A stretch of DNA of 64,000 nt from Paenibacillus sp. FSL R5-0912 (lineage in GTDB: Bacteria; Bacillota; Bacilli; Paenibacillales; Paenibacillaceae). Below the pieces are notes generated by a model that made no database searches, was not told the DNA's origin, and saw only the letters and a program-made list of their open reading frames with translations. This document shows, piece after piece, positions 16,570 through 31,064 of this stretch. Made by a program: the position numbers and the translations under genes. The stretch covers positions 1,178,001 to 1,242,000 of the forward strand of contig NZ_CP009282.1 of the NCBI RefSeq assembly GCF_000758605.1, written 5' to 3'. How positions within the stretch are numbered: the first letter of the stretch is position 1; each line of letters begins with the position of its first letter.

Positions 16570-16590
16570 GGGGGCTATATAGGCTGAATT

Positions 16591-16746
16591 AAAGATATTC
16601 ACTTAAAGCACGCGCGTCACTACGGTGAATATTTGGACTTCCGGCCGCTGTTAGGTTTGGATTTCCTGATTTAAACTGCTGTTCGCAGTAGAAATCCAAC
16701 CCTAAAGGCGGACGCTAGCGCTCCTACAGTTCCAAAATCCCCCTCC
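16591..16746 (-). repeat. Dispersed structured repeat element, copy A
   Basis: About 156 bp, read best on the minus strand. It holds a main stem of 15 bp (14 paired) with arms at 16651-16665 and 16691-16705 and an inner hairpin ACTGC/GCAGT. Flanking blocks GGAACTGTAGGAGCG and CAGCGGCCGGAAGTCCA are nearly identical in copy B at 29946-30100. The two copies differ in the stems by paired, structure-preserving changes. No ORF or transposase is inside. It may be a MITE/REP-like element or a structured RNA. Confidence 0.85.
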
Positions 16747-16802
16747 GATCCTTTGCTCTTTTTGTTGCACTCTTAATTCTTCTTATATAGTGAGATGGGA
16801 AT

Positions 16803-29842: not shown

Positions 29843-29945
29843 ACTATTACTGCATATTTTTCCGGTTTTCAGGAAAAAGGAAAGTTGTGGTAGAATATAA
29901 AAATGTATGAAATGGGTTTTTGTTTTACACTAAGGTGAAAGTAGC

Positions 29946-30100
29946 GGAGGGGAAGTTTGGAACTGTAGGAGCGGTTGCGTCCGCCTTTGTCTGCGGATTT
30001 CCACCGCAAAAGCGGTATGAATCAAGAAATCTGCAGACAACAGCGGCCGGAAGTCCAGACATTCCCCGCAGTTACGACGGACACTTTAAGTAAAAAGATA
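29946..30100 (+). repeat. Dispersed structured repeat element, copy B
   Basis: Second copy of the element seen inverted at 16591-16746. Main stem: TTGTCTGCGGATTTC (29987-30001) with GAAATCTGCAGACAA (30026-30040), all 15 positions paired with one G-U. Inner hairpin: ACCGC/GCGGT. It ends about 37 bases before the ABC ATPase start at 30138, so it could be part of that gene's leader. The rest of the 29671-30137 gap holds only the gltB terminator and AT-rich sequence. Confidence 0.85.
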
Positions 30101-30137
30101 GCCCGTTTCATCCAAACCGACGAAAGGAAGTGAAGTT

Positions 30138-31064
30138 ATGCCGAATACGGCAGAAGTTGTGAAACCTGTGGCCAGCCTGATGGGGGTTACCAAAAAGATC
30201 GGCTCCAAAACGCTGATCAACGACTTGACCCTCGATATTCCGCCCGGGCAAATCTTCGGATTCCTGGGCCCGAACGGTGCCGGTAAAACAACTACCATCC
30301 GCATGATGGTAGGTCTCATCTCCATTAGCCGCGGGGATATACTCATCTGCGGACGCAGTATTAAAGATCATTTTGAAGAGGCGATAGCGAATGTAGGGGC
30401 TATTGTGGAGAATCCGGAAATGTACAAGTTTCTTACCGGATACCAGAACCTGCGCCAGTATGCCCGCATGGTCCCCGGTGTGACTAAGGAGCGGATTAAT
30501 GAAGTAGTAGAACTGGTAGGTCTCGGCCAGAGAATCAACGACAAGGTTAAGACCTATTCTCTGGGGATGCGCCAGCGGCTGGGTGTGGCCCAGGCACTGC
30601 TGCACCGGCCGAAGCTGCTGATTCTCGATGAGCCGACTAACGGGCTGGACCCGCAGGGCATCCGCGAGCTGCGCGATTATCTGCGCCTGCTGTGCCAGAA
30701 GGAAGGTACTACTGTTTTTGTCTCCAGTCATTTGCTCGCTGAAATGGAACTCATGTGTGATAGTGTGGCGATAATCCAGAACGGCCGCCTGATCGAAGTG
30801 AAACAGCTTAAAGCTGTAGGCAATGTGATGGTGCCGGTGGGTGAGACCCTGTTCGAAGTGGATCAGCCTGAAGCTGCGCTGGAACTGATGGGCCGTGGCG
30901 TGGTGAAGGACGGGGGCATTGCTGTAGAGGCGGTGCGGGAGGAAATTGCCGAGCTCAACGCGAAGCTGGTGGCCGGCGGAATTAAGGTGTACAGCATCAA
31001 GCCGCTGTTCCGGTCATTGGAAGATCAATTCTTGGAGATTACAGGAGGTGAAGGCATTGGGTGA
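30138..31064 (+). CDS. ABC transporter ATP-binding protein (BcrA/YxlF type)
   Basis: ATPase subunit of an ABC-2 exporter, 308 residues. Motifs: Walker A GPNGAGKTT (44-52), signature SLGMRQR (141-147), Walker B LLILDEP (160-166) with TNGLDP after it, and switch His in VSSHLLAEM. The C-terminal extension beyond residue 230 is usual for this subfamily. AAAGGAAG precedes ATG 30138. It overlaps the permease gene by 8 bases. The exported substrate is unknown; related systems give bacitracin or lantibiotic resistance. Confidence 0.92.
   Translation: MPNTAEVVKPVASLMGVTKKIGSKTLINDLTLDIPPGQIFGFLGPNGAGKTTTIRMMVGLISISRGDILICGRSIKDHFEEAIANVGAIVENPEMYKFLTGYQNLRQYARMVPGVTKERINEVVELVGLGQRINDKVKTYSLGMRQRLGVAQALLHRPKLLILDEPTNGLDPQGIRELRDYLRLLCQKEGTTVFVSSHLLAEMELMCDSVAIIQNGRLIEVKQLKAVGNVMVPVGETLFEVDQPEAALELMGRGVVKDGGIAVEAVREEIAELNAKLVAGGIKVYSIKPLFRSLEDQFLEITGGEGIG

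Follow-up and report, generated by a model that had tools for sequence, protein, structure and literature searches.

A dispersed Paenibacillus repeat with IS630-type ends and a core that covaries as a structured RNA

Two copies of the repeat and their distribution

The stretch of DNA that we analyzed (the window) comprises 64,000 nucleotides of the Paenibacillus sp. FSL R5-0912 genome and carries two copies of a repeat, copy A on the minus strand and copy B on the plus strand. Copy B lies between gltB and an ABC transporter gene, where it is placed between a promoter-like box and a ribosome-binding site. The features are as follows.

16575..16790, minus: copy A, whole element including the outer C..G, with TATATA ends at 16576-16581 and 16784-16789
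16723..16747, minus: copy A core, 5' arm of the outer helix with the GGAACTGTAGG block
16710..16724, minus: copy A, small side hairpin GC[GNNA]GC
16691..16708, minus: copy A, 5' arm of the main stem (covariation)
16646..16665, minus: copy A, 3' arm of the main stem with AACAGCG (covariation)
16623..16644, minus: copy A core, 3' arm of the outer helix with the CCGGAAGTCCA block
29885..29896, plus: promoter-like -10 region TTGTGGTAGAAT upstream of copy B, recognized by eye; a putative promoter
29907..30111, plus: copy B, whole element, its extent estimated from degenerate inverted ends at 29907-29916 and 30102-30111, with no intact TATATA
29945..30068, plus: copy B core, with outer arms 29945-29969 and 30047-30068
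29968..29982, plus: copy B, side hairpin
29984..30001 and 30026..30045, plus: copy B, arms of the main stem
30122..30133, plus: shortly after copy B, the ribosome-binding site GAAAGGAAGTGA that serves the ABC transporter gene at 30138-31064

The original prediction described a 155-bp element in two copies, encoding no protein. The repeat is real, and both of its conserved flanking blocks are present in copies A and B, but neither the length nor the copy number held: sequence comparison showed that the full element runs on to inverted ends in further copies and is about 216 bp long, and it is a multi-copy element, present in many diverged copies, without a transposase gene. No stop-free frame longer than 60 codons was found inside copy A or copy B, in agreement with the prediction, and a coding element was rejected on this ground. 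At 29950-29966 and at the aligned positions of other copies, the conserved GGAGGGGAA..TTGGAACTGTAG resembles a ribosome-binding site followed by a three-codon frame (TTG GAA CTG TAG); this frame may be due to chance, because copies with CTGGAG lack that stop.

A BLAST search with copy B gave 46 matches in its own genome, a single contig of 7,718,525 bases; some of these matches are fragments of the same copy. A covariance model built from 31 copies, for which 150 of 2900 candidates were scored in a first look, gave 78 matches in the same genome at an E value of 0.001 or better. A covariance search of Paenibacillus genomes had been proposed with the original prediction. Model matches occurred in 28 of 40 genomes, namely the own genome, 24 of 24 other members of the genus, and 3 of 15 others of the same order. 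A pattern taken from one arm matched at least 120 stretches in named genomes; among the 80 matches listed, 79 were from Paenibacillus and one was titled Bacillus sp. FJAT-27264. Copy A had no blastn match among 50,697 phage records and 72,556 plasmid records, and a phage or plasmid source was rejected for this reason.

The copies fall into F1, its variant F1b, and a cousin family, F2. In F1b copies (L093-L098, L100, L102, L108 and L113 in the own genome) the side hairpin is separated from the main stem by an additional module, GAAAGCTTTCC..GGAAAGCT..CGGAAGCAT, roughly 40 nt long. F2 copies (nos. 54, 56, 58-60, 62, 64-66, 69, 70 and 77 in the own genome, for example L099, L101 and L103-L105) have the side hairpin and the main stem in common with F1 and a different outer sequence; 7 of 12 lie between convergent genes, and a similar terminator-like hairpin stands 3' of several. 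By eye, other small elements of the same genome (L120-L124, L132 and L136) have the same ends around different interiors; the shortest measures 33 bp and consists of two ends back to back, and the longest measures about 235 bp.

The only match at the gathering score in an Rfam scan of the window was a T-box leader (RF00230, 44970-45271, plus strand, 113.7 bits). Relaxed Rfam scans of copy A and one further copy gave only matches below the gathering score, and identity with a known Rfam RNA was rejected, the repeat having no match at that score. The literature on Paenibacillus repeats and IS630 MITEs, covered through titles and the beginnings of abstracts and, for subscription journals, in part, gave no description of the element. 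Neither source thus yielded a match to a described element.

Terminal repeats, IS630 genes and sites in related genomes

In intact copies both termini are inverted repeats, TATATA(R)RWTGAACT, mostly with a C outside. We scored the ends of 125 F1 and F1b copies against a 15-position motif, TATATA(R)(R)(W/G)TG(A/C)ACT, with a threshold of at least 12 of 15. Both ends passed in 55 copies and one end in 22, and 48 copies had no recognizable ends; shuffled arms reached 12 in 147 of 5000 cases. The base outside TATATA was C in 81 of 132 ends, and excising the element together with one TA leaves CTAG in 13 of the 22 copies with TATATA at both ends. From these sequences, the empty target was likely CTAG, with the TA duplicated on insertion. 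We rejected the outer C..G as part of the terminal repeat and read it as a target preference, because it is less conserved than the inner TATA and no consistent duplication is found outside it. A base-exact empty site was not found among the relatives' loci compared, whose flanks are too diverged, and BLAST searches for empty sites with element-containing queries returned mainly other copies.

An IS630-family transposase gene was found in the own genome; it spans two overlapping frames close to an A8 run, which may reflect either a programmed frameshift or damage. The C-terminal piece scores above the NF033545 cut-off and also matches DDE_3, and the N-terminal piece, at 98.5 of 100 bits, narrowly misses that cut-off. 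This gene is flanked by C|TATATAAAATGATCT and C|TATATAAATTGAATT, the same ends as those of the repeat. A homologue of the transposase is present in 32 of 61 genomes of the genus, the own genome included. Around the gene, paired ends 1.12-1.20 kb apart were found at 12 of 30 fetched loci and in 8 of 300 shuffled ones, and the other 18 loci gave no paired ends; with a stricter threshold the counts were 9 of 30 and 0 of 300. The ends at these loci include C|TATATAAGTTGAACTAAAG and C|TATATAGAACGCATTTAAG, which are close to the small-element variants C|TATATAAGTTGAACTAAAT and C|TATATAAGACGCACTAAA. The terminal inverted repeats are therefore common to the repeat and to IS630 elements of the same genome and genus.

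The presence of the element differs between relatives at the four sites examined. At the site of copy B it is found in genomes G015 and G011 and, by coordinates, in G009, and no element was found there in G007, G003, G001, G017 and G013, in which the two genes directly adjoin. At the site of copy A there is no element in G011, G009, G012 and G018, where the stop codons stand about 80 bases apart; G015, whose sequence is masked there, was left out of this comparison. At two other sites the profile detected an element in the own genome only, with none at that position in the other loci retrieved; by eye, the own copies there are flanked by a stop codon on one side and a terminator-like hairpin on the other.

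Pairing in the core and orientation of the copies

The main stem arms read TTAGGGTTGGATTTC/GAAATCCAAACCTAA in copy A (minus strand) and TTGTCTGCGGATTTC/GAAATCTGCAGACAA in copy B (plus strand). Reading the sequences confirmed that five pairs (3, 4, 5, 7 and 8) differ on both sides with pairing kept, and that the inner hairpin, ACTGC/GCAGT in one copy and ACCGC/GCGGT in the other, adds one compensatory pair, as originally predicted. Pair 6 is T-A in copy B and a G.A mismatch in copy A, and pair 9 is G-C in copy A and G.T in copy B.

An RNAalifold fold of 31 own-genome copies has 39 pairs, 15 of which have changed on both sides at least once without loss of pairing, against a mean of 5.0 in shuffled alignments. 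The observed covariation was reached in none of 500 shuffles by any of five measures, and sliding the partner columns by 1 to 3 gave at most 8 double-changed pairs. The excess of compensatory changes over shuffled controls supports the earlier proposal of selection on a folded molecule. In a set of 106 copies (46 own and 60 from other species), the top five column pairs by mutual information were all in the main stem. Within the helices, two non-Watson-Crick pairs, G.A 87/174 and A.G 89/172, were present in 106 of 106 copies, and three were nearly invariant: G.A 68/193 (101 of 106), A.G 70/191 (102 of 106) and G.A 81/180 (99 of 100).

When copy B's site was compared in three species, the core was 83-90% identical, the spacers had diverged, and the stems differed with pairing kept. 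On the core tree, copies from the same site in different species do not group together as clades, and part of the covariation may therefore be due to gene conversion or reinsertion; in-place compensation, gene conversion or reinsertion may each underlie the same-site stem differences, and compensatory double changes could also stem from template switching between the arms. At what seems to be one and the same site, L229 (G009) and L230 (G011) carry different stem types, GTCTGCAG and AGGTTTGG, which suggests replacement, conversion or repeated insertion.

We then asked whether the pairs decay to G.U or to A.C. Pairs were chosen in a strand-neutral way (at least 60% Watson-Crick), and the terminal repeats served as an internal control; conserved A.C-type mismatches in the helices (A.C 83/178 in 100 of 106 copies and C.A 107/165 in 105 of 106) lie outside the counted pairs. 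Counting origins on the tree of the 106-copy set, the core had 91 changes to G.U and 27 to A.C, and the terminal repeats had 79 and 69. The own copies alone gave 66 cells to 27 in the core and 62 to 55 in the terminal repeats. Ranking by the RNA model had biased the 60 foreign copies (78 cells to 1); therefore, the count was redone on 107 copies that were selected with a sequence pattern from one arm. In this set the core had 88 origins of G.U and 27 of A.C (p 1e-8), or 67 and 21 outside the pattern itself (p 9e-7), whereas the terminal repeats had 77 and 70 (p 0.62). Because the core decays to G.U rather than A.C and the ends show no such bias, the core is constrained as a plus-strand RNA and the ends are not. 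The test points to an RNA rather than a DNA hairpin. The plus strand was also predicted to be more stable than the minus strand in 98 of 106 copies, a count biased by the model-ranked foreign copies. The idea that the RNA constraint is relaxed in copies without ends (21:16 against 51:11) came from a set biased by the model ranking and was dropped; in the pattern-selected set, terminal-branch events in copies without ends kept the G.U bias (25:7 against 47:18).

All orientation counts rest on our own gene caller. The flanking genes of 77 copies in the own genome were both in the sense direction in 46 cases, both antisense in 9, convergent in 15, divergent in 3 and unknown in 4. Where both neighbors are co-directional, F1 and F1b together gave 44 sense and 7 antisense copies; F1b alone showed no clear bias (5:3) and F2 none (2:2). 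Among the 60 copies of other species, 31 were sense, 7 antisense, 7 divergent, 1 convergent and 14 unknown. The pattern-selected set had 60 sense and 4 antisense copies, together with 6 divergent, 8 convergent, 13 unknown and 16 that were too short. The ratios 31:7 and 60:4 were not summed, because the two sets have species, and maybe copies, in common. Since the IS630 target is palindromic, the sense bias most likely arose by selection after insertion. The core ends 50-70 bases before a start codon in 14 of the 44 sense copies, as it does in copy B, upstream of which the promoter-like -10 region is kept in relatives with and without the element.

Explanations of the repeat and comparison with known systems

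The original prediction left the choice between a structured RNA and a mobile palindrome, and each alternative turned out to be partly true: the G.U/A.C comparison points to RNA, and the repeat is, most likely, a mobile element as well. We most likely have to do with an IS630-type MITE that is also a structured RNA, its movement in trans being putative and its transcription predicted. Our preferred reading, to which we give a probability of about 0.68, is an IS630-type MITE, likely non-autonomous, whose core acts as RNA inside host transcripts. An IS630 transposase would cut at the TATATA ends and insert the element into a TA, with CTAG as the favored context, and the TA would be duplicated. 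The copies would be transcribed together with host genes, as parts of 5' leaders, 3' tails and operon gaps, and the core RNA would form a long hairpin that contains the invariant G.A/A.G pairs and is accompanied by a small side hairpin with a GNNA loop. A cell factor, either an RNase or an RNA-binding protein, would recognize this fold, and the mRNA would be processed or insulated; we propose these two steps because of the invariant pairs and the sense bias. Sense insertions would be tolerated or useful and antisense ones lost. As read from the sequences, the element is thus likely a mobile RNA cassette of UTRs and operon gaps that is recognized by a cell factor.

A bolder form of this reading, which we hold only tentatively, is that of a mobile riboregulator, a protein-recognized RNA domain seeded in the sense direction into dozens of transcripts per genome across Paenibacillus. 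This domain would consist of the GNNA side hairpin, the invariant G.A/A.G pairs and a freely rewritten stem; it would ride on IS630 ends in F1, carry the extra 40-nt module in F1b, and have another outer sequence in F2.

Could the repeat be a plain IS630-type MITE that folds as DNA, with no role as RNA? Its arms would then be kept complementary by template switching or gene conversion, together with transposase or host proteins that bind DNA. The mobile-element anatomy, the absence of clades among same-site copies and the joint change of whole blocks of the main stem all agree with such a palindrome, but on one strand the core pairs, unlike those of the terminal repeats, decay to G.U and not to A.C, the sense bias is strong, and G.A/A.G pairs stay invariant in a stem that is otherwise rewritten; we consider this explanation improbable. 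Somewhat less probable still is a host regulatory RNA, either a leader or a small RNA, spread mainly by duplication and host selection at each site, with mobile ends belonging to some copies only. The 48 of 125 copies without ends, which nonetheless have a G.U bias of 25:7 in the pattern-selected set, would fit such an RNA, as would the inner domain in common with the F2 relatives despite their other outer sequence. However, presence differs between close species at four sites, the neighboring genes look unrelated, and the ends are common to transposons. We regard as very unlikely a REP/BIME-like palindrome mobilized by a single-strand Y1 (TnpA_REP) transposase, a link raised with the original prediction that the ends and the transposase genes found between them do not support: such an enzyme could also cause strand-asymmetric constraint on a long intergenic hairpin, but the inverted terminal repeats and their TA/CTAG context match IS630 transposase loci, and the strand asymmetry is absent from the ends. 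The MITE with an RNA-acting core therefore remains our preferred reading.

We compared the repeat with known systems by description, as given in the portions of the cited papers available to us. RUP of Streptococcus pneumoniae, a 107-bp MITE of IS630-Spn1, is likewise a small intergenic repeat with IS630-like ends and TA insertion (PMC2229807, PMC3049150); the available part of a 2007 review gives it no signature of structure or function beyond its ends, whereas here the core covaries as a one-strand RNA with a sense bias. ERIC/IRU of enterobacteria is a co-transcribed MITE whose RNA alters mRNA stability in an orientation-dependent manner (PMC2229807), but it is 127 bp long and enterobacterial, and for the present element an effect on mRNA is only proposed. 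Correia/NEMIS repeats of Neisseria have terminal inverted repeats and a transcribed hairpin proposed as an RNase III substrate, and their size variants with an internal insert resemble F1 and F1b (PMC2229807); they differ in host and ends, and the role of an RNase is conjectural here. The bcr1-bcr18 repeats of the Bacillus cereus group are MITE-like repeats of a Firmicute, often in UTRs and operon gaps, and bcr10 and bcr18 have conserved secondary structure (PMC3446304); no mobilizing enzyme is named for them there. ISY100 of the IS630 (Tc1/mariner) group inserts at TA and duplicates it (PMC2170065), and a title cited in that paper names a preference for TA in CTAG; ISY100 is autonomous, whereas the present element has no gene. 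RUP is nearest in mobility, and ERIC and NEMIS are nearest in the possible action as RNA.

Are bacterial MITEs under selection as RNA, or are they DNA parasites that happen to fold? In our reading, the debate has drawn largely on single loci, such as those with ERIC. Here, one family gives a genus-wide and internally controlled signal, in that the core obeys the pairing rules of a one-strand RNA and the ends of the same copies do not. The comparison of G.U with A.C, with the terminal repeats as control, is applicable to other bacterial repeats. Since one genome offers dozens of natural sense insertions, an effect on mRNA can be tested directly. If the repeat were indeed a mobile riboregulator, unrelated genes of Paenibacillus would come under common control at the RNA level.
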